A stretch of DNA of 64,000 bases, from contig CAJXYP010000007.1 in NCBI GenBank assembly GCA_913063225.1, positions 1 through 64,000 of the forward strand, written 5' to 3'. The position numbers and the translations under genes are program-made. Each line of letters begins with the position of its first letter. The stretch's first letter is position 1. Shown here in pieces: positions 1,096 to 18,127 of the stretch. The stretch comes from an uncultured Cellvibrionales bacterium. Its GTDB lineage: Bacteria > Pseudomonadota > Gammaproteobacteria > Pseudomonadales > GM7GCV1. The notes under the pieces are model-generated. The model searched no databases, was not told the origin of the DNA, and saw only the letters and a list, made by a program, of their open reading frames with translations.

Positions 1096-1995
1096 TTATG
1101 AGCCGTCTTCTTTACTAAATAAGTCGTCTAATTTCTGCTCGTAGCTGTGATAATCGAGATAGTCGTAAAGCTCCTCTCGCGTTTGCATCTCTTCGACCAA
1201 CCGACTCTGGTCTCCTTCCGCTAGTAATACTCGATATAGATTTTCAGCCGCTTTATTCATCACTCGAAACGCTGACAGAGGATAAAGAACCATGTCGACA
1301 CCCCAGCGACCTAAATCATCTCGGTTATAAAGTGGCGTTTTTCCAAACTCTGTCATATTCGCCAATATTGGTACGTCGACAGCTTCACGAAATGCTTCGT
1401 AATGTGATTGCTCTGTTACAGCCTCTGCAAAAATTCCGTCCGCTCCCGCTTCTACGTAGGACTGCGCTCGCTCAATTGCGCTGTTCAATCCCTCTGTGGC
1501 AAAAGCATCGGTACGTGCCATAAGGAAGAAACTGCTATCAACCTTTGCGTCGGCAGCAGCCTTAATTCGGTCGCACATTTCTTCTTTGGAAACACATTCT
1601 TTATTTGGGCGATGTCCACAGCGCTTTTGAGCAACTTGATCTTCGATATGCGCCGCCGCAGCACCAGAACTAATAACATTCTTTATGGTTTTGGCAATAT
1701 TGAAAGCACCACCCCATCCAGTATCGATATCAACAAGTAATGGCAGACTGGTTGCTGAGCCAACGCGCCGGACATCCTCGAGAACATCGTTTAAGGAGGT
1801 CATGCCCAAGTCCGGAATCCCATAAGATGCATTGGCGACTCCCCCTCCAGAAAGGTAGAGACATTTGTGGCCAATTTTCTCAGCCATTACAGCTGTGTAA
1901 GCGTTTATAGCTCCTACGATTTGTAACGGCGCGTTGTCTTCCAGTGCTTTGCGAAATCGATTGCCGGGTGTGATATTTGTATATGTGTCACTCAT
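1096..1995 (-). CDS. prpB: 2-methylisocitrate lyase
   Basis: Cleaves 2-methylisocitrate to pyruvate and succinate, the last step of the methylcitrate cycle. The 299-residue protein has the isocitrate lyase/PEP mutase fold. The catalytic loop KRCGH sits at residues 124-128 with the nucleophilic Cys at 126; the metal-site region VDIDTGWGG is at about 88-96. Length matches E. coli PrpB (about 296 residues). The start is supported by an AAGAG ribosome site just before the ATG. It is co-directional with prpC downstream and with the lipoyl protein and E1 genes upstream, separated from the latter by 138 bases. No 2-methylcitrate dehydratase gene is visible in this window; it may lie beyond position 1. 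Confidence 0.95.
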   Translation of the reverse strand: MSDTYTNITPGNRFRKALEDNAPLQIVGAINAYTAVMAEKIGHKCLYLSGGGVANASYGIPDLGMTSLNDVLEDVRRVGSATSLPLLVDIDTGWGGAFNIAKTIKNVISSGAAAAHIEDQVAQKRCGHRPNKECVSKEEMCDRIKAAADAKVDSSFFLMARTDAFATEGLNSAIERAQSYVEAGADGIFAEAVTEQSHYEAFREAVDVPILANMTEFGKTPLYNRDDLGRWGVDMVLYPLSAFRVMNKAAENLYRVLLAEGDQSRLVEEMQTREELYDYLDYHSYEQKLDDLFSKEDGS

Positions 1996-2133: not shown

Positions 2134-2382
2134 TTATTCTTCTATAGTCGCAAAGGGCACACCCTGAGAAACCTCGTCACCAACTTTTACTGAAATGTCG
2201 ATTATGGTTCCCGCTTGCTCAGCAGGAACCTCCAGGGTAACTTTTTCGATTTCTATCTCTAACAGTGTGTCACCAACATTCACAACATCACCGACGCTTA
2301 TGGGAATATCTAGAACCGAGCCCCGAATACTTTCATCGCTTTCACTCAAAGGGGGGATTTTCAGTAACTTTTTCATTTCCAT
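2134..2382 (-). CDS. stand-alone lipoyl-domain protein
   Basis: An 82-residue protein consisting almost only of one biotinyl/lipoyl-type domain. The hairpin that carries the modified lysine reads EIEKVTLEVP with Lys47 as the expected lipoylation site, and the flanking GDTLLEIE and GTIIDISVKVGDEV segments match E2 lipoyl domains. There is no subunit-binding domain or acyltransferase domain, and the 138 bases downstream do not encode one. It starts two bases after the E1 gene stops, so the two are almost certainly co-translated. Inference: it serves as a trans-acting swinging arm or acyl carrier for the adjacent E1, borrowing E2 and E3 from elsewhere. GcvH is less likely because the sequence is E2-like and shorter than GcvH. 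Confidence 0.85.
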   Translation of the reverse strand: MEMKKLLKIPPLSESDESIRGSVLDIPISVGDVVNVGDTLLEIEIEKVTLEVPAEQAGTIIDISVKVGDEVSQGVPFATIEE

Positions 2383-2384
2383 TC

Positions 2385-5090
2385 CTATGTCCGAGTGCGC
2401 GGTTCGCGCTTTTTATTGTCGATATCTAAGGAAGCGCATTGCTCACCAACTACCTCTGCATTTATTCGACCCTCTCTGTACAAAGCAGAAATAGCTGCCT
2501 GTGCAATATATGCCGCGCTAACTTCGAAAAAATCGCGCAAGTTTTCTCTTGATTCACTCAGTCCATAACCGTCAGTACCGAGCACTTCATAGCGGCCCGG
2601 TATCCAGGGTGCAATGCTAGACGCCACACTCTTCATAAAGTCTGTGGCCGCAACAAATACGCCTTTATGTTCCGCAAAGAGAGTCGCTACGAATGGAATA
2701 CGTTGTGGACCTGTTGGATTGAGCCTGTTCCACCGTTCAAAGGTCTCCGCCTCACGATGTAGTTCAGAAAAGCTGGTGATACTCCAGATATTTACCTGAT
2801 ACTCAAGCTCCTCAAGAATGTCAGCCGCTAAAATAATCTGCTGCATAATAGAGCCGCTGGATAAAAGGTTGATTACTTCACCCTTATCTCGCCGCGATGA
2901 CCGATAGCAATAGCCGCCCTTAAGGATGCGTTCGACGATATTTTTATGGTCCGGCAATGAGGGCATTACATGGTTTTCGTTGTAGACCGTCAGATAATAG
3001 AAAACATCTTCTTGCTCCGTATACATTCGACGTATGCCATCTCGGATAATGATGGCTAGTTCGTAGCCAAAAGCTGGATCGTAGCTCACCAAATTAGGCA
3101 CCGTGCTAGCAAGCACATGAGAGTGCCCATCTTGATGCTGCAAACCTTCACCATTTAGCGTGGTTCTGCCGGCAGTGCCCCCGAGTAAGAACCCGCGACA
3201 CATCATGTCACCACAGCCCCATATCATGTCCCCGACGCGCTGAAACCCAAAGATGGAGTAAAAAATGTAAAAGGGGATCATCGGCAGTCCATGTACCGCA
3301 TACGCACTTCCTGCTGCCATAAAGGAAGCGATAGCGCCTGTCTCACAGATGCCTTCTTGCAATATCTGTCCGTCTTTCGCTTCTTTATAGGGAGTTAAAG
3401 TCTCAGCATCAACTGGCGTATAGTTTTGTCCATCATGGGAATAGATACCTGCGGCTCTGAATAGTCCGTCCATTCCAAAGGTACGTGCCTCGTCTGGCAC
3501 AATAGGCACCACGTATTTGCCAATATCCTTTTCTTTAAGAAGCTTCGACAAAATGCGCACGGCAACCATGGTTGTCGAGACCTTTCGCTCTCCACTACCT
3601 TTGAAGATGTCCGAGAAAAATTCCAAAGGCGGAGCTTGAATCGACTGACATTTAACTTCTCGAGACGGCAGGTAGCCACCCAAAGCCTTTCTATGCCGCT
3701 TCAAGTACCGCAGCTCTTCACTGTCTTCAGCCGGCCGATATAGATCTGCTCTTGCTGCAGCGTCTTCGCTTAGAGGTATGCCATAGTTCTTGGCGATTTG
3801 AATTCGTTCTTCTGGCGCGAAATTCTTTTTCTGATGCGCATTGTTGCGACCTTCCGCAGATGGCCCCATGCCATCACCCTTAACAGTTTTTATCAAGATA
3901 ACCGTGGGTTTATTCGATTCTTGCGCGGCGCGCAGATAGGCGGCGTAGATTTTTTTTACATCTTGGCCACCACGTTTAATTAACTTCAATTCCTGATCCG
4001 TCAGTGAATTCATCATTTTTTCTAATTCGGGATTGCCCTCCACCCAATGCTCCCGCTGAACATCGCCAGGCAGAATCGAGTACCGCTGATAGTCACCATC
4101 TAGGCAATCATCCATGCGCTTTCTTAGAATACCTTTCGCGTCCTGAGCGAGTAATACATCCCAGCCGGAACCCCAGACTACTTTGATAACGTTCCAATCC
4201 GCTCCGCGAAAGGACCTTTCGAGCTCCTGAATGACTTTGCCATTTCCTCTTACTGGACCGTCCAATCGCTGAAGATTGCAGTTAACTACCATCACTAGAT
4301 TGTTGAGCCTTTCTCGAGATGCGATATTTATGGTACCTAGAACTTCTGGTTCATCCGCCTCACCATCACCTATAAAGCACCAGTACTTCCCGCCGGAATC
4401 CTGTTTCAGTTTGCGGTTAATAAGGTATTTGGCAAAACGCGCCTGATAGATTGCCGAAGGCGTAGACAGTCCCATGGAGGCGTTTGGCATTTGCCAAAAC
4501 GATGGCATTGATCTCGGATGTGGATAAGACGAGAGCCCACCCCCCTCACCGAGTTCTCGGCGATAGTTGTACAACTGCTGTTCAGATAATCGCCCTTCGA
4601 GAAATGCCCTTGCGTAAATACCCGGAGCCGCGTGGGGCTGAGGCATCACAACATCTCCACCGTAGTCTTCAGTTCTAGCGCGGAAAAAATGATTGAATCC
4701 CACTTCTAATATGGTTGCCGCTGAAGCGTAGGTGGCGATATGCCCGCCAACGCCAGTACCTTCATCCTGAGCCCGAAGTACCATCGCCATGGCGTTCCAG
4801 CGAATGATATTTTCAATTTTCTTCTCCATACCAAGATCACCAGGATAACTAGGCTGGTCTGATAGAGGGATGGTATTTGTGTAAGGCGTATTTAACGTGG
4901 CTTCACTAATCTGAATACCCTTACTTAACGCATGATCCTGAATAATCCGAAGTAATTCTTTAACTGCATCGTCACCGAAGGATGTGCAGATATTATCAAT
5001 GGACTCTAGCCACTCTTGTTTGTCTTCTGCTAAGAATTCGTTTAGCGCACTACTCACTTTGACTTCGCCTATTTCGGACCAATATTTCAA
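2385..5090 (-). CDS. 2-oxoacid dehydrogenase E1, AceE/MdeB type (probable 2-oxobutyrate dehydrogenase)
   Basis: Thiamine-diphosphate E1 component of the homodimeric AceE class, 901 residues against about 887 in E. coli AceE. The ThDP motif begins GDGEADEPE at residue 241 and continues to NCNLQRLDGPV. The active-site His/Gln pair is recognisable in VVMPQPHAAPG. Around the first active-site His the sequence is HIATYASA, where E. coli AceE has, from memory, HMASFQSS, so the substrate pocket differs. Known context: Pseudomonas MdeB is an AceE homologue encoded beside an Lrp-type regulator and used for 2-oxobutyrate. Here the gene faces a divergent Lrp gene and precedes a lipoyl protein, prpB and prpC. 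The inferred reaction is 2-oxobutyrate to propionyl-CoA, though pyruvate cannot be excluded. Confidence 0.85.
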   Translation of the reverse strand: MKYWSEIGEVKVSSALNEFLAEDKQEWLESIDNICTSFGDDAVKELLRIIQDHALSKGIQISEATLNTPYTNTIPLSDQPSYPGDLGMEKKIENIIRWNAMAMVLRAQDEGTGVGGHIATYASAATILEVGFNHFFRARTEDYGGDVVMPQPHAAPGIYARAFLEGRLSEQQLYNYRRELGEGGGLSSYPHPRSMPSFWQMPNASMGLSTPSAIYQARFAKYLINRKLKQDSGGKYWCFIGDGEADEPEVLGTINIASRERLNNLVMVVNCNLQRLDGPVRGNGKVIQELERSFRGADWNVIKVVWGSGWDVLLAQDAKGILRKRMDDCLDGDYQRYSILPGDVQREHWVEGNPELEKMMNSLTDQELKLIKRGGQDVKKIYAAYLRAAQESNKPTVILIKTVKGDGMGPSAEGRNNAHQKKNFAPEERIQIAKNYGIPLSEDAAARADLYRPAEDSEELRYLKRHRKALGGYLPSREVKCQSIQAPPLEFFSDIFKGSGERKVSTTMVAVRILSKLLKEKDIGKYVVPIVPDEARTFGMDGLFRAAGIYSHDGQNYTPVDAETLTPYKEAKDGQILQEGICETGAIASFMAAGSAYAVHGLPMIPFYIFYSIFGFQRVGDMIWGCGDMMCRGFLLGGTAGRTTLNGEGLQHQDGHSHVLASTVPNLVSYDPAFGYELAIIIRDGIRRMYTEQEDVFYYLTVYNENHVMPSLPDHKNIVERILKGGYCYRSSRRDKGEVINLLSSGSIMQQIILAADILEELEYQVNIWSITSFSELHREAETFERWNRLNPTGPQRIPFVATLFAEHKGVFVAATDFMKSVASSIAPWIPGRYEVLGTDGYGLSESRENLRDFFEVSAAYIAQAAISALYREGRINAEVVGEQCASLDIDNKKREPRTRT

Positions 5091-5192: not shown

Positions 5193-5672
5193 ATGCCAAA
5201 AGTTAAACTTGACCGACTAGATGCTCGAATACTGCATCACATACAATCAAACGGAAAAATATCCAATACCGAACTTGCAGATAAAGTAGGCCTGTCTCCC
5301 TCACCCTGTTTACGGAGGGTAAAAGCTCTCGAAAAAAGCGGCGTTATAAAACGCTATGTGGGTATTCTTGATCCAGCCAAGGTTGGGCTTCCTATCAACG
5401 TATTTACAACTGTGAGCCTTAAGAACCAGGGACGACCCTCGCTAGAAGAGTTTGAGCGGAGCATTATCGGTTTCACCGAAATTATGGAGTGCTACCTTAT
5501 GACTGGCACCTCTGATTATTTTCTACGGGTGTCAGTGCCGGACATGGAAGGCTATGAACAATTTCTGCTGGACAAAATTACCACTATTCCCTGTGTAGCT
5601 AACATCGAATCAAGCTTTTCGTTGAAGCAAGTCATTTATCGAACAGAGATGCCTATTATTCCCCATCAATAG
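5193..5672 (+). CDS. Lrp/AsnC-family transcriptional regulator
   Basis: A 159-residue feast/famine regulator. The N-terminal winged helix-turn-helix covers about residues 8-65 (ARILHHIQSNGKISNTELAD, then SPSPCLRRVKALEKSG), followed by the RAM ligand-binding domain (MECYLMTGTSDYFLRVSVPD at about 100-118). Such proteins bind amino acids and switch adjacent catabolic operons. It is transcribed divergently from the E1-lipoyl-prp genes, the same layout as mdeR/mdeB of Pseudomonas, so control of 2-oxobutyrate/propionate catabolism is the likely role. The effector (methionine, threonine, leucine or another amino acid) cannot be read from sequence. Confidence 0.92.
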   Translation: MPKVKLDRLDARILHHIQSNGKISNTELADKVGLSPSPCLRRVKALEKSGVIKRYVGILDPAKVGLPINVFTTVSLKNQGRPSLEEFERSIIGFTEIMECYLMTGTSDYFLRVSVPDMEGYEQFLLDKITTIPCVANIESSFSLKQVIYRTEMPIIPHQ

Positions 5673-8109: not shown

Positions 8110-9507
8110 CTAACACTCGATAATATTGACCGGCACAGCGACTACATTAATAGCTAAGCCGCCGCGCGATGTTTCTTTATACTTATCCTGCATATCCCTG
8201 CCGGTATCTCGCATGGTTTTAATCACTTGATCCAGAGATACATAATGCTTACCGTCTCCACGTAATGCCATTCGAGCAGCACTAATTGCTTTTACCGCCG
8301 CCATCGCATTGCGCTCTATACAGGGCACTTGCACCAAACCACCTACTGGGTCACAGGTTAGACCAAGATTATGCTCCATAGCTATCTCAGCAGCGTTTTC
8401 TACCTGCATAGGCGTTCCACCAAGAGCTTCAGTTAGCGCGGCGGCGGCCATGGAACATGCCGAGCCAACCTCTCCTTGGCAGCCAACTTCAGCCCCGCTT
8501 ATGGAAGCATTAGTTTTATACAAAATACCGACCGCTCCAGCCGTCAGCAGAAACCTAGGGGCATCGCGCTCGGCGTTGCCGGAACAAAAATGCAGATAAT
8601 ATCTGAGCACCGCCGGAATAATGCCCGCCGCTCCGTTTGTAGGCGCCGTTACCAACCGACCCCCCACTGCATTCTCTTCATTTACCGCAAGCGCATAGAG
8701 GCTAACCCAATCCAATGCATTTAGAGGATCCTCAACAACACTGCCTTTTTGACCACGAAGCTGTCTATATAGCTGCGCAGCACGACGTTTTACTTTAAGA
8801 CCGCCAGGCAGAATGCCCTCGCTCCGATAGCCCTTTTCGATACAACTATCCATTACTCGCCAAAGCTCAAGTAGATCGGCATTTATCTGCTCTTCCGGGC
8901 GCCAGACCTTTTCGTTCTCCATCATTAAGGCGCTAATCGAAAGACCTGATTGGTCGCACTGCTGCAAAAGCTCATCGCCACTGCTAAACGCATATGGCTG
9001 AGGCGTTTTATCTTCAGATATTAGATTTTCGGCTTCAGCATTTTCATCCACAACAAAACCGCCACCGACCGAGTAAAAAACTCTGGCATAAATTTCGCTG
9101 CTTTCATCATATGCAGTGAACCGCATTCCATTTGCGTGAAAGGGAAGGCTCTCTTGACGATGCATTAGCAAATCATTTCGATAGGAAAATTCCAGCTGAT
9201 GCATACCTAGAAGGTTTAGCTTGCCGCTTTCGCGTACTTCAGATATTCGGGCAGCAATAGATTCGACCGCTACAGACTCTGGCGTCTCTCCTTCCAAACC
9301 CAAGATTATGGCCTTTGGCGAACCATGGCCCGCTCCTGTCGCACCGAGAGAACCATAAAGCTCGGCTTTCACGCGGAGGGTTTTTTCTAATAATCGCTCT
9401 TCTTGAAGGGCCTCGGCGAATTGCCGCGCAGCACGCATCGGGCCCACTGTATGGGAGCTTGAAGGTCCAATTCCAACCTTAAATAGGTCAAAGACACTAA
9501 GAGACAT
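8110..9507 (-). CDS. sdaA: L-serine ammonia-lyase (iron-sulfur type)
   Basis: Deaminates L-serine to pyruvate and ammonia in the cytoplasm. The single-chain 465-residue protein carries the N-terminal beta domain with [12 protein letters not shown] and the C-terminal alpha domain. The three cysteines known to hold the 4Fe-4S cluster are visible in [21 protein letters not shown] and [10 protein letters not shown]. Length fits the family (about 455 residues). It heads a minus-strand operon with the kinase-like, hydrolase and SnoaL genes, and lies back to back with the SnoaL-kbl-tdh operon. Glycine made by kbl can become serine, so this enzyme may finish threonine breakdown to pyruvate. Confidence 0.95.
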
Positions 9508-10817: not shown

Positions 10818-12023
10818 ATGACAAAGTCATTTATAGAGCATATTAACAATACGCTTGAATCAATCAAAAGTGATGGCCTTTATAAACAAGAAAAGGCCAT
10901 TGCCTCACCTCAATCTGCCAATATTAAGGTTGGTAGCGCCGCATCGAATGCCGAGTCAGTTTTAAACCTTTGCGCCAACAATTATCTCGGCTTATCGGAC
11001 AATCCGGAATTAATTGATGCAGCAAAAGCCGCATTAGATAATCGTGGTTACGGCATGGCCAGTGTTCGTTTTATCTGCGGCACACAAGACATTCATAAAC
11101 AACTTGAGCTCGATCTGGCCGACTTTCTAGGAAAGGAAGATTCGATTCTATTCGCCGCATGCTTTGATGCGAACGGTGGAGTTTTTGAGCCGTTGTTAAG
11201 TGCCGACGACGCGATCATCTCAGATTCGTTGAATCACGCTTCTATTATTGACGGCATACGATTGTGCAAAGCACGACGTTATCGGTATGCACACTCTAAT
11301 ATGGAAGAGCTAGAGTCATGCTTGAAAAAAGCGACGGACGAAGGGGCCCGTTTCATTATGATCGCCACCGACGGTGTTTTCTCTATGGATGGCACCTTTG
11401 CAAAACTACCTGAAATCACAGCATTGGCAAAACACTACAACGCCGTAGTCATGGTTGATGATTGCCATGCAACTGGCATTGTAGGTCCGCAAGGGCGGGG
11501 AACTCATGCACATTTTGAGGTGGACGACGATGTGCACATCCTGACAGGCACCCTGGGTAAGGCTCTTGGTGGCGCGATGGGTGGTTACATTGCAGGACCG
11601 AAGCCAATTATTGATTTGCTGCGTCAACGGGCTCGCCCTTACCTTTTCTCCAATTCATTAGCACCAAGCATTGTTGCGGCAAGCTTGACGGCGCTCGAAT
11701 TGGTAAAACATGGAGACGATCTGAGATCGCACCTTTTTGAGAACACCCGATTTTGGCGTGATGGGCTGCAACGACTTGGGTTTGATCTACTTTCAGGAGA
11801 GCATCCAATTGTACCCATCATGTTAGGCGATGCGGTATTGGCTCAGGAGCTAGCTTCAGAGCTTTTTAAAGAAGGCGTATATGTAGCGGGCTTCTTTTTT
11901 CCTGTTGTGCCTAAAGGTATGGCACGTATTCGAACTCAAATGACGGCAGCGCTGACTAGAGAAGATTTAGAACGAGCACTTAAAGCGTTCGAAATTGCTG
12001 GTAAGCGAGTTGGAGCAATCTAA
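10818..12023 (+). CDS. kbl: 2-amino-3-ketobutyrate CoA ligase (glycine C-acetyltransferase)
   Basis: PLP enzyme of the alpha-oxoamine synthase family. It converts 2-amino-3-ketobutyrate and CoA to glycine and acetyl-CoA, the second step of threonine breakdown. The 401-residue length equals the usual 398-400. Seen motifs are [20 protein letters not shown], the substrate-site region [27 protein letters not shown], and the PLP lysine in [15 protein letters not shown]. The stop codon overlaps the tdh start by one base, giving the classic kbl-tdh pair. Confidence 0.97.
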
Positions 12024-13081
12024 TGACGATCAGGGCATTGCCAAACAACATGAAAGCTTTATGCAAAGCAAAACCTGAAATTGGCCTATGGATGGAGAAC
12101 CATCCCGTCCCGGAAATTGGCCCTGAAGATGTGCTTATTAAGATAAATAAGACAGCCATTTGCGGCACGGATATTCATATCTGGAACTGGGACGATTGGG
12201 CGCAAAAAACAATCCCAGTACCCTTGATAACGGGCCATGAATTTGCCGGCGAAATTGCCGCAGTGGGCAACGAAGTTAAAAACTTTTCTATAGGTCAGCG
12301 TGTATCTGGTGAAGGCCACCTTGTTGGCGATAAAAGCAGGGCAAGTAGAGCCGGTCGCTTCCATCATGATTCGGAAACACGCGGCATTGGAGTGAATGTG
12401 CAAGGCGCATTCGCTGAGTATTTACGCATGCCTGCCTTTAATGTTATCCCGCTTCCAGATGAGATTAGCGATGATATTGGCGCCCTACTTGATCCCTTGG
12501 GCAACGCTGTGCATACGGCACTGTCGTTTGACCTAGTCGGCGAAGATGTCCTTATCACTGGAGCTGGACCAATTGGGATCATGGCCGCTGCAATCGCTAG
12601 ACATGTTGGTGCCCGGCAGGTCGTTATCACTGATATTAACCAGGACCGTTTAGACCTCGCTTCAAAAGTAACCGATGTTATTCCCGTTAATGTAGCTGAA
12701 ACCGACCTAATTTCTGTTCAGCAAAACCTAGGCATAAAAGAGGGTTTTGATATCGGCTTGGAGATGAGTGGTGTTGCTAGCGCTTTTGATCAGATGAGTA
12801 AATCATTAGTCATTGGCGGCAAAATAGCTATGCTTGGTATCCCCGCGGGAAAATCTCTAGTGGATTGGAACGATATCGTATTTAAATCCATAACTATCAA
12901 AGGCATATATGGTCGCGAAATGTTCGAGACCTGGTACAAAATGATCGCATTGCTGCAAAATGGTTTGGATGTGAGCAAGATTATTACGCACTCATTCTCT
13001 GCTGATGATTTCGAGGTAGGTTTCGAGACCATGAGGTCTGGACAAAGTGGCAAAGTGATTCTTGATTGGAGCTCAACCTAA
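12023..13081 (+). CDS. tdh: L-threonine 3-dehydrogenase lacking the structural-zinc cysteines
   Basis: Zinc-type medium-chain dehydrogenase that oxidises L-threonine to 2-amino-3-ketobutyrate with NAD+. The 352-residue protein follows E. coli Tdh closely ([20 protein letters not shown], the Rossmann motif [24 protein letters not shown]). Catalytic zinc ligands Cys (ICGTD) and His-Glu (GHEFAG) are present. The lobe that normally carries four structural-zinc cysteines reads [20 protein letters not shown], with no cysteine. Enzyme identity is clear; the lost zinc lobe is unusual and worth checking. It ends the SnoaL-kbl-tdh operon. Confidence 0.95.
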
Positions 13082-14545: not shown

Positions 14546-16267
14546 TTATTCGCGAACCGGTAATACGATACCGTTATCTGCCACGTATTGATCCCAAGCT
14601 ATTAGAAGATCAGCCACAATTTCGGGTTCCGATGCGGAAAGATCATTCATTTCACCTGGATCAACCGAGATGTCGTACAACCCCCAATGATCAGCGCGTT
14701 CTGGCGTTCCTTGAAGCCACTCAGCTGGCGTTGAGGTTAACCAAAGTAATTTCCAATCTCCTTTGCGGATTGCTCTGTGTCCAAAAATTTCCCAGCCAAA
14801 GGTGAAATCATCCGGACGTACCTGAGTATCATCGCCAAGTAGGAATGGCAAAAGGGAATAACCTTGCAGCTCTTGCAGAGGCGTGCCGTTGCTTCCCGTG
14901 GTGAGATCAGTGGCACCAGCCAATTCTAAAAAGGTTGGCGCAAAATCAACAACGGAAATAAACTCATCGCTCATCTGACCCGTTTTGGTTAACTCCGGGT
15001 AGTGAATAAAAGCCGGGCCATGAGTTCCGCCCTCAGAACTATAAGATTTGTGATATCGCCCGACACCTACTCCTGCCTGAGCCCACCTCTCGCCGTAGTA
15101 AATATAAGAGTGCATGCGACCCATATTTTCTAAGCTGTTATCCCAACCGGTTCCACCAAAATCGCGTTGTGAACCTTCGGCACCATTATCGGAAATAAAC
15201 ACGATTAGGGTATTTTCGTATTCGCCTGTCGCCTTGAGGTGATCTATAAGGCGACCAACATTTTGATCGACGCCATCAACCATGGCTGAGTAGAGTTCCA
15301 TTTCTCGAGAGGCTACCGCTTTTTCTTCTTCAGACAGTTCATCCCAAGCAGGCACCACTTCATAGCGCGGATACATCTCTGCTTCTTGAGGAATAACGCC
15401 TAGTTCTTTACCGGCGGCAATTCGTTGCTCGCGCAGAACTTCGTAACCTTCGTCGTAGCGGCCTTCATACTTATCAATGTAGTCTTCTGGAGCCTGCAGA
15501 GGCCAATGAGGTGCGGTGTAACCTAAAAATGCAAACCAAGGTTTGTCATTTACCGCGTCGGCGTCAATGGCGTCAATAAGATAATCCGTATAGAAATCCG
15601 TTGAGAAAAAATCCTCTGGCAGGTTCTCAATAAGATTCCCGTCTTCGTAATAGGCGCCAAAGTTGTCTGGAGCAGTTCGCGCCGCATCGGAAAAGTGACT
15701 GGCGAAGCCTTCCATGAGTGCAAAAGAACGATCAAAACCGCGAGCATCTGGCGTTAAATCTGGCTCTGAGCCCAAATGCCATTTGCCAATATAGTAAGTG
15801 TCGTAGCCACTTTGACTAAGAAGATCTGGAAAGGCCACAACGTCGCGACTCAGGTGAGACTCGTACCCAGGCACATCTATCTGATTAGGGGTTTGGTGCA
15901 TTGCACCGCCCGCATTTCTATTGTCAGTTCCAGAAAGAATGGACGCTCTTGTTGGCGCGCAAACCGCTTGGTTATGGAAGTCAGTGAGGATTAGGCCCTC
16001 TCTGGCTAGCTGATCCAGAATTGGCGTTTCAATTTCACCACCGTAAACACCCAGATCCGTGTAGCCGAGATCGTCTGCAACAATCAACAATATATTGGGT
16101 CGAGATGCCGCTGCGACTGCAGCCATTTCAACTTCAGTTTGCATACCATCGACATGATCATCGGCAGAACTGTCGTTATGAGAGTCCATTTCAGAGCCGC
16201 TATCACAAGCAACAAGAAAGAACGCAAAAGCACAAATCAGTGCCAAAGCAAATTGATTTTTAACCAT
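14546..16267 (-). CDS. sulfatase lipoprotein
   Basis: Formylglycine-type sulfatase, 573 residues, exported as a lipoprotein: the signal ends in FFLVAC, then an acidic, Ser-rich linker. The alkaline-phosphatase-fold sulfatase core follows: metal Asp pair in IVADDLGYTDLGVYGGE, the formylglycine motif C-A-P-T-R in AVCAPTRASILSG, GKWHLG, and the second metal site in FISDNGAEG. It should hydrolyse sulfate esters at the cell surface or periplasm; the substrate is unknown. It needs a formylglycine-generating or anaerobic sulfatase-maturing enzyme, not seen here. The neighbour at 16445-18127 is a close paralogue with collinear blocks, pointing to tandem duplication. Confidence 0.95.
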   Translation of the reverse strand: MVKNQFALALICAFAFFLVACDSGSEMDSHNDSSADDHVDGMQTEVEMAAVAAASRPNILLIVADDLGYTDLGVYGGEIETPILDQLAREGLILTDFHNQAVCAPTRASILSGTDNRNAGGAMHQTPNQIDVPGYESHLSRDVVAFPDLLSQSGYDTYYIGKWHLGSEPDLTPDARGFDRSFALMEGFASHFSDAARTAPDNFGAYYEDGNLIENLPEDFFSTDFYTDYLIDAIDADAVNDKPWFAFLGYTAPHWPLQAPEDYIDKYEGRYDEGYEVLREQRIAAGKELGVIPQEAEMYPRYEVVPAWDELSEEEKAVASREMELYSAMVDGVDQNVGRLIDHLKATGEYENTLIVFISDNGAEGSQRDFGGTGWDNSLENMGRMHSYIYYGERWAQAGVGVGRYHKSYSSEGGTHGPAFIHYPELTKTGQMSDEFISVVDFAPTFLELAGATDLTTGSNGTPLQELQGYSLLPFLLGDDTQVRPDDFTFGWEIFGHRAIRKGDWKLLWLTSTPAEWLQGTPERADHWGLYDISVDPGEMNDLSASEPEIVADLLIAWDQYVADNGIVLPVRE

Positions 16268-16444: not shown

Positions 16445-18127
16445 CTAATCAAGCACCGGCACTATTAAACCATTGGCCGAACTGTATTCAGCCCAAGCTT
16501 CCTGTAGTTCAGCAACCTTGGCTGGAAACTCCGCCGAAAGATCATTGGTTTCGCCGGGATCAATTCGCATATCAAATAGCTCCCACTGATCTGCGCGTTC
16601 GGCCAAAGGCTGGCGCGCTTCAGAAGGCGTTGACGTTAACCGCAAAAGCTTCCAATCCCCTTTGCGGATGGCCAAATGGCCAAAGACTTCCCAACCAAAC
16701 ACAAAGTCATCCGGTCGAACCGAGTCGGCATCGCCCAAAGCTAGTGGCAGCAATGACTTGCCTATATGCGGCTGTATTGGTCGGCCGTTGTATCCAAATT
16801 CTGGATGCTCTGCACCAGCGAGCTCCAAGAATGTCGGCGCCAAATCAACCACTGAGGTAAAGGCATTGCTAATCTCGCCTTTTTTACTAACCTCTGGATA
16901 GTGAATAAAGGCAGGACCGCGTGTGCCACCATCAGAACTCAGGGACTTAAAGTACCTCATAACTCCAACGCCGGCAGCGGCCCATTCAGGGCCATAGGAA
17001 ATATAGGAGTTAACACGCCCCATATTATCCAAACTGTTATCCCAGCCATTGCCGCCGCGATTCAGCCCTTCTGCCCCGTTGTCCGAAATAAACACAATAA
17101 AGGTATTCTCGTATTGGCCCGTTGCTTTCAAGTGATCGATAAGCCGCCCAACATTCTGATCGAGAACATCAACCATGGCCGCGTAAATTTCCATTTCTTT
17201 TGAGGAGATGGCTTTCTCTTCATCCGATAACGAATCCCAGGCTGCTACTACTTCCAAACGCGGGTACATCGCCGCCTCTTCAGGGATTACACCCAGTTCT
17301 TTGCCGCTGGCAATACGGTTGTCTCGCAGTATTTCATAACCTTCATCGTAAAAGCCCTTGTACTTAGCAACTTCCGCATCCGGCGCTTGCAGTGGCCAGT
17401 GGGGCGCTGTGTAGCCCAAGAAAGCAAACCAAGGATCGCCACTAGCACTGTCCTTATCAATAGCATCGATTATGTAATCGGTATAGAAATCTGTTGAATA
17501 AAAATCCGTTGGCAAGCTCTCTACCAAATTACCGTCTTCAAAATATTCGGCAATAACGTTAGGGCTAGCACGAGTAGCGTCAGAGTAGTGACTAGCAAAC
17601 CCCTCCATAAGCGCAAAAGAACGATCGAATCCTCGTGCATTTGGTATTTGATGAAACTCATTGCCCAAATGCCATTTTCCGGCCCAATAGGTGTTGTACC
17701 CCGACTGCTTCAATAGCGCCGGGAACGCGACTACATCTTCGTTTAGATAGGACTCATAACCCGCAACATCTCTTTGGTTGGGGGCCTGATGCATAGCGCC
17801 GCCAGCGTTATGATTATCTGTACCAGAAAGAATCGCCGCTCTCGTAGGCGCGCAAACCGCCTGATTGTGAAAATCCGTCAGAATCAGACCGTCATTGGCT
17901 AGCTGATCAAGGTTAGGCGTATTGATTTCGCTGCCGTAAACACCCAGATCGGTATAACCCAGGTCGTCAGCGACAATTAGTAGGATATTGGGCCGTTTCA
18001 AATTCGCTTGAGTAAAACCCGCTACCGGAGCAGCAACGCTTTCTGATTCATCCAGCGTTCCGCCGCCGCAAGCCACTAAAGTTCCCAGGATACTTAACAA
18101 CGCCAACTTAAATTTTTGATTTTTCAC
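16445..18127 (-). CDS. sulfatase lipoprotein (tandem paralogue)
   Basis: Second sulfatase, 560 residues. The signal peptide ends with the lipobox LGTLVAC followed by GGG. Motifs match the neighbour almost block for block: IVADDLGYTDLGVYG, formylglycine motif in AVCAPTRAAILSG, WHLGNEFHQIPNARGFDRSF, and FISDNGAEGLNRGG. It is upstream of, and co-directional with, the 14546-16267 gene (177-base gap), so the two are likely co-expressed but not tightly coupled. Differences are concentrated in the linker and in loops around the predicted substrate pocket, which suggests related but non-identical sulfated substrates. Confidence 0.95.
   Translation of the reverse strand: MKNQKFKLALLSILGTLVACGGGTLDESESVAAPVAGFTQANLKRPNILLIVADDLGYTDLGVYGSEINTPNLDQLANDGLILTDFHNQAVCAPTRAAILSGTDNHNAGGAMHQAPNQRDVAGYESYLNEDVVAFPALLKQSGYNTYWAGKWHLGNEFHQIPNARGFDRSFALMEGFASHYSDATRASPNVIAEYFEDGNLVESLPTDFYSTDFYTDYIIDAIDKDSASGDPWFAFLGYTAPHWPLQAPDAEVAKYKGFYDEGYEILRDNRIASGKELGVIPEEAAMYPRLEVVAAWDSLSDEEKAISSKEMEIYAAMVDVLDQNVGRLIDHLKATGQYENTFIVFISDNGAEGLNRGGNGWDNSLDNMGRVNSYISYGPEWAAAGVGVMRYFKSLSSDGGTRGPAFIHYPEVSKKGEISNAFTSVVDLAPTFLELAGAEHPEFGYNGRPIQPHIGKSLLPLALGDADSVRPDDFVFGWEVFGHLAIRKGDWKLLRLTSTPSEARQPLAERADQWELFDMRIDPGETNDLSAEFPAKVAELQEAWAEYSSANGLIVPVLD

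Follow-up and report, generated by a model that had tools for sequence, protein, structure and literature searches.

We confirm that the window, which is the whole 64,000-nucleotide stretch of DNA analysed here, holds a genuine gene for a complete, clean-ended lipoyl domain detached from any E2 protein and located directly behind an AceE-type E1 gene. The gene is best read as an E2 that has been cut down to its lipoyl domain, and we assign a probability of about one half to the interpretation that this reduced E2 supplies an arm acting in trans, as a loose carrier that links the neighbouring E1 to a core belonging to a different E2 in the cell. Most likely the product remains functional, serving as an untethered lipoyl carrier. 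Read along the minus strand, the gene order is E1, lipoyl gene, prpB and prpC, with 2 nt between the first two and 138 bases between the lipoyl gene and prpB (Table 1). Base 1 of the window is also base 1 of its contig (C7), and the draft genome to which it belongs comprises 2.26 Mb and is 96.8% complete.

Table 1. Features of the E1-lipoyl locus and its immediate neighbours in the window.
Feature	Position	Strand	Basis
prpC, 2-methylcitrate/citrate synthase, truncated by contig start	1..1083	-	NF009006, 602.2 bits (cut-off 550)
prpB, methylisocitrate lyase	1096..1995	-	NF008455, 504.8 bits (cut-off 353)
Stand-alone protein consisting of a lipoyl domain, 82 aa or, from the second ATG (2376), 80 aa	2134..2382	-	PF00364; AlphaFold2 barrel; kin to E2 lipoyl domains
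Lys47 codon, predicted lipoylation site, in hairpin EIEKVTLEVP	2242..2244	-	K47 invariant in alignment A1
AGGA, overlapping the E1 stop; possible ribosome-binding site of the second ATG	2383..2386	-	Sequence reading
AceE-type homodimeric E1 (TTG start, 901 aa), the genome's second copy	2385..5090	-	TIGR00759; own clade (support 100)
Lrp/AsnC-type regulator, divergent from E1	5193..5672	+	Pfam AsnC_trans_reg and HTH

The lipoyl gene begins with ATG and ends with TAA, directly after the last strand of the barrel. Its product scores 54.7 bits with the Pfam Biotin_lipoyl model (cut-off 22.1), and 29 PDB sequences are matched at E ≤ 0.001, most of them lipoyl or biotinyl domains, with the E2 of a PDH complex at the top. 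AlphaFold2 confidently predicts an all-beta barrel (mean pLDDT 88.4, pTM 0.68), for which Foldseek returns both biotinyl and lipoyl domains. The lysine of the hairpin is conserved in all 21 lipoyl domains of alignment A1. The protein has the lipoyl domain and attachment lysine of an E2, whereas the peripheral subunit-binding domain (PSBD, PF02817) and the catalytic core (PF00198) are absent from it and from the adjoining DNA. When the window was searched by tblastn with six related E2 proteins, the lipoyl part alone was matched and no remnant of a PSBD or core was found, and the 138 bases before prpB contain no long frame. Only the two bases GA separate the stop codon of E1 (TAG, 2385-2387) from the lipoyl ATG. 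A second ATG (2376-2374) is preceded by AGGA, 6 nt upstream and overlapping the E1 stop, such that by this sequence reading the protein may be 80 aa long; the overlap suggests translational coupling of the lipoyl gene to E1.

A preliminary description of this locus had reported a complete lipoyl domain detached two nucleotides behind an E1, ending at a normal stop, followed by no E2 remnant and distinct from GcvH. These observations all hold, and GcvH is rejected as its identity since no GcvH family occurs among the Pfam and NCBIfam matches at E ≤ 0.001. Two other identities were considered and set aside. LbpA is rejected because there is no cysteine among the 82 residues and the neighbours are E1 and prpB. 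Biotinyl domains carry an MKM biotinylation motif, and a biotin carboxyl carrier is rejected because the hairpin here reads EIEKVTLE.

The neighbouring E1 is clearly of the AceE type, scoring 1211.5 bits against TIGR00759 (cut-off 859.9). Its alignment to E. coli AceE covers residues 22-897 and keeps the histidines of the GGH, HxxPG, NxAHQ and LQH stretches, which we take to be catalytic in AceE. The name MdeB, which had also been suggested for this E1, does not fit the protein or its clade: the score against TIGR03186 is 1044.8 bits, below the cut-off of 1408.3, and the E1 branches apart from the annotated mdeB of Martelella. Relatives were sought in overlapping draws of genomes from the order (390), the class (369), the phylum (398) and one family (140), and in the GTDB contig collection. 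Clade members are 59-77% identical to the window E1, and other AceE-type E1s reach at most 54% among the matches listed. When canonical AceE sequences and one annotated mdeB were added to the tree, the clade formed one side of a branch with support of 100. These comparisons place the clade apart both from the aceE of the same genome and from mdeB. Plasmid searches returned only matches under 60% identity, and no relative of the lipoyl protein was found when it was searched against viral contigs.

Several members of the clade have features of their own. In three loci (L112, L115, L120) a clade E1 is found with a two-lipoyl E2 on contigs named Flavobacteriaceae (Bacteroidota), which suggests transfer between phyla. 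One genome (G157) has two clade E1 copies (L074 and L076), with an E2 behind one alone. The E1 matches of L075 (G107), L142 (G1125) and L148 (G1212) each include one internal stop codon, although an open frame spans almost the whole gene, and the stop codon probably lies at an edge of the match.

The genome has further complexes of this kind. A canonical aceE-aceF pair is found on contig C10, a sucB-lpd cluster on C3, and an E1alpha/E1beta/E2 cluster on C12 (E1alpha assigned by eye), the E2 of which is a member of a heterodimeric-E1 cluster. Near the E1 operon, the window encodes a serine ammonia-lyase (8110-9507, minus strand) and a glycine C-acetyltransferase/threonine 3-dehydrogenase pair (10818-13081, plus strand), an amino-acid degradation neighbourhood. 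Farther along, two similar sulfatase-like proteins, recognized by eye, are encoded side by side (14546-16267 and 16445-18127, minus strand). A scan for promoters and terminators gave a signal no better than the shuffled level and was set aside.

What follows the related E1s was compared at 73 distinct loci of the clade, using lipoyl, PSBD and core sequences as tblastn queries so that the search did not depend on reading frames. A full E2 (lipoyl-PSBD-core) stands behind the E1 in 13 of them (L123, L124, L074, L077, L099, L117, L119, L125, L084, L112, L115, L120 and L151), and its lipoyl domain always starts at least 10 nt past the E1 stop. Neither an E2 nor a lipoyl gene lies beside the E1 in 59, some of which have little downstream sequence (161 bases for L144 and 1.1-2.6 kb for six more), and a single locus, L122, has an E2 that lacks the lipoyl domain. 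A stand-alone lipoyl gene occurs beside the E1 in none of the 73. The preliminary description had raised the prospect of a family of stand-alone lipoyl proteins beside such E1s; as far as searched, the window protein is outside any family of this kind, and our survey of open-licence papers, a weak negative, found no stand-alone lipoyl protein described beside an E1. A divergent Lrp-type regulator also adjoins the E1 in L122, L072, L073, L099 and others.

Left out of these counts were L105 (same contig as L104), L114 (same contig as L080) and L116 (949 bits, 51%; an AceE outside the clade). One search contributed 20 of its 28 new clade matches, the eight left out belonging to the 62-64% group g118. 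L104 and L105 represent the same E1 stretch at both ends of one contig (CACMHG010000037.1) in opposite orientation, which is probably a palindromic assembly artefact. Short lipoyl frames from three other genomes were rejected as stand-alone homologues: those of G001 and G003 are contig-end fragments behind canonical AceE-type E1s, and that at G173:C2:439096 sits, by eye, in a broken-up oxaloacetate decarboxylase-like region.

The locus without a lipoyl domain is also the one whose E1 is closest to the window E1 among the relatives found (77% identity), and the two E1s are sisters with support of 99 in two trees. The L122 E2 (L122:6978-7916, G726:C133) is a protein of 312 aa that begins at the PSBD, 3 bases past the E1 stop. 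Its PSBD match is weak (23.0 bits, below the 23.7 cut-off) and its core is intact by Pfam (246 bits); the genome is 71% complete. The sister pair thus carries complementary halves of one E2. The earlier statement that E2 proteins always continue with further domains after the lipoyl domain has to be qualified by this reverse counterpart, an E2 that has the further domains and no lipoyl domain.

The origin of the window domain is indicated by its closest relatives. The 11 best-scoring of 52 compared lipoyl domains all come from dedicated E2s behind clade E1s. The top two, from L123 and L124, are 51% and 50% identical to the window protein, and their E1s are among the next closest; in alignment A1 the identity to the L123 domain is 48%. 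A tree was built from 53 domains and has poor resolution (79 columns, unsettled bootstrap); in it, the 32 AceF-type domains, including that of L084, fall on one side of a branch with support of 100/96 and the window protein falls on the other. Grouping the window protein and the dedicated-E2 domains as one clade is not rejected by the AU test (p 0.347), a result that is no proof of the grouping. The window domain thus comes out closest to the lipoyl domains of dedicated E2s, not to the AceF of its own genome, and because of this kinship and its position off the AceF side of the tree we favour a reduced E2. A dedicated E2 (lipoyl-PSBD-acyltransferase) would once have stood behind the window E1, and a deletion would have taken the PSBD and core and left the lipoyl arm. 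The preliminary description had reasoned that close homologues found inside E2 proteins only would mark this copy as a fragment. That is largely what the comparison gives, the closest homologues being lipoyl domains of full E2s in the same position. The preliminary description is therefore partly supported, being right on a detached and intact domain and off on a family and on the derivation of the gene from an E2.

If the E2 was reduced, is the remaining domain still in use? The window domain averages 41.6% identity to the lipoyl domains of 12 dedicated E2s at a mean E1 identity of 66.4%, and the attached domains among themselves average 40.9% over 59 pairs at an E1 identity of 64.5%. Its divergence matches that of attached domains, and decay is not visible. 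Frame, barrel, lysine and coupling to E1 are all intact, and Lys47 and six other invariant positions of A1 are retained. Nevertheless, a recent cut of the E2 gene would give an equally undecayed picture. In the main rival, a recent deletion cut the E2 gene, and the lipoyl stub is translated but has no role, while E1 works with AceF, as E1s with no E2 next to them would have to. We regard this as a real if doubtful possibility. The stand-alone arrangement is known from one genome only, and substitutions occur at two positions that are almost invariant in A1 (G13S and D46E, the latter residue also being E in L151). Moreover, the 59 loci of 73 with neither an E2 nor a lipoyl gene, together with the loss of the other half in L122, point to frequent dismantling of the E2 in this clade. 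A roleless stub agrees less well with the clean end at a domain boundary, with the full barrel and lack of a scrambled tail, with a start coupled closely to the E1 stop, and with divergence no higher than that of attached domains.

It is unlikely that the E2 was already split into a lipoyl gene and a PSBD-core gene before the lineages of the window and L122 diverged, the missing half of each having since been lost or moved elsewhere. The sister relationship of the two E1s is consistent with such a split, as is the distance of each half from the E1 stop (2-3 nt), which is nearer than that of the lipoyl domain in any of the 13 full E2s. However, the window's own assembly contains no core-only E2, no short lipoyl frame was found in G726 at E ≤ 1 (in a genome only 71% complete), and two independent losses account for the pattern equally well. 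Least probable by far is the independent acquisition of a lipoyl domain, with AceF or a biotin carrier as the source of a copy inserted behind E1. Lipoyl domains are mobile between proteins, and Foldseek puts biotinyl domains beside lipoyl domains, but the sequence groups with dedicated E2s rather than AceF, and its hairpin reads EKV instead of the MKM motif of biotinyl domains.

If the arm does act as a loose carrier, Lys47 would be lipoylated by the ordinary machinery of the cell. The window E1 would decarboxylate a 2-oxo acid, most likely 2-oxobutyrate, and acylate the free lipoyl group, which would then pass its acyl load on to an acyltransferase core elsewhere in the cell, that of AceF or of the C12 E2, before being reoxidised by a shared Lpd. 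The resulting propionyl-CoA would enter the methylcitrate cycle via the neighbouring prpC and prpB products. The genome makes available the E2 cores of AceF, SucB and C12 as well as an Lpd, and among these cores AceF would be the most likely acceptor; no core-only E2 was found in the assembly, its three cores lying in frames of 417, 541 and 466 aa. We propose 2-oxobutyrate and propionyl-CoA because prpB and prpC adjoin the lipoyl gene in this one operon. Among the loci searched for prpB, one other (L088) has prpB and prpC near a clade E1, with prpB 6.5 kb off, such that the assignment leans mainly on the window's own gene order.

Two considerations count against a carrier function. A clade E1 that has no E2 beside it must rely on the E2 of another complex, or act otherwise. 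Since so many clade loci have neither an E2 nor a lipoyl gene, the window E1 is probably able to use the lipoyl domains of another complex, and a private arm would then be dispensable. In addition, free lipoyl domains lack the tether that gives E2 complexes their channelling.

In the usual view, lipoyl domains in 2-oxo acid dehydrogenases are swinging arms on a tether, and the E2s beside related AceE-type E1s (L123, L124, L074 and L099) conform to this architecture. These E2s resemble the window gene in their place behind E1, in lipoyl sequence and, in some loci, in the presence of a divergent Lrp-type regulator, whereas the window gene is without linker, PSBD and catalytic core. Similarly, the Martelella mdeB operon (divergent Lrp regulator, mdeB, E2, lpdA) shares the regulator-E1 layout and the lipoyl-bearing gene behind E1, but it includes a full E2 and its own lpdA, and the two E1s are about 50% identical and belong to different clades. 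Actinobacterial OdhA/KGD provides a precedent for transfer in trans, in that OdhA uses the lipoyl groups of AceF and the lipoyl group and acyltransferase core reside on separate polypeptides (PMC10415282, PMC7568260). In that system E1 and the core form one fusion protein and AceF supplies the arm, whereas the window arm would be a separate protein whose gene accompanies that of E1. Known single-domain carriers that move freely between enzymes with a lipoyl group include GcvH of glycine cleavage, LbpA of sulfur oxidation (PMC6067878) and LarG of Pelobacter (PMC3543383). These belong to a GcvH-like family, with LbpA having two conserved cysteines and linkage to hdr genes (PMC6067878), in contrast to the 82-aa, cysteine-free, E2-type domain of the window.

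We tentatively propose, at somewhat less than even odds, that a free arm encoded with an alternative E1 passes acyl groups to the E2 core of another complex, and that the reciprocal state, an E1 with an armless E2, exists in a sister lineage. It is this reciprocal state that makes the locus moderately interesting. If true, an E1 whose arm is untethered, together with a sister E1 whose E2 has no arm, would form a simple system for separating the contribution of the tether from that of E1-lipoyl recognition in flux and specificity, and would illustrate the borrowing of a housekeeping complex's core by an alternative E1. If decay alone is at work, the pair would still show an E2 gene coming apart at its domain boundaries.
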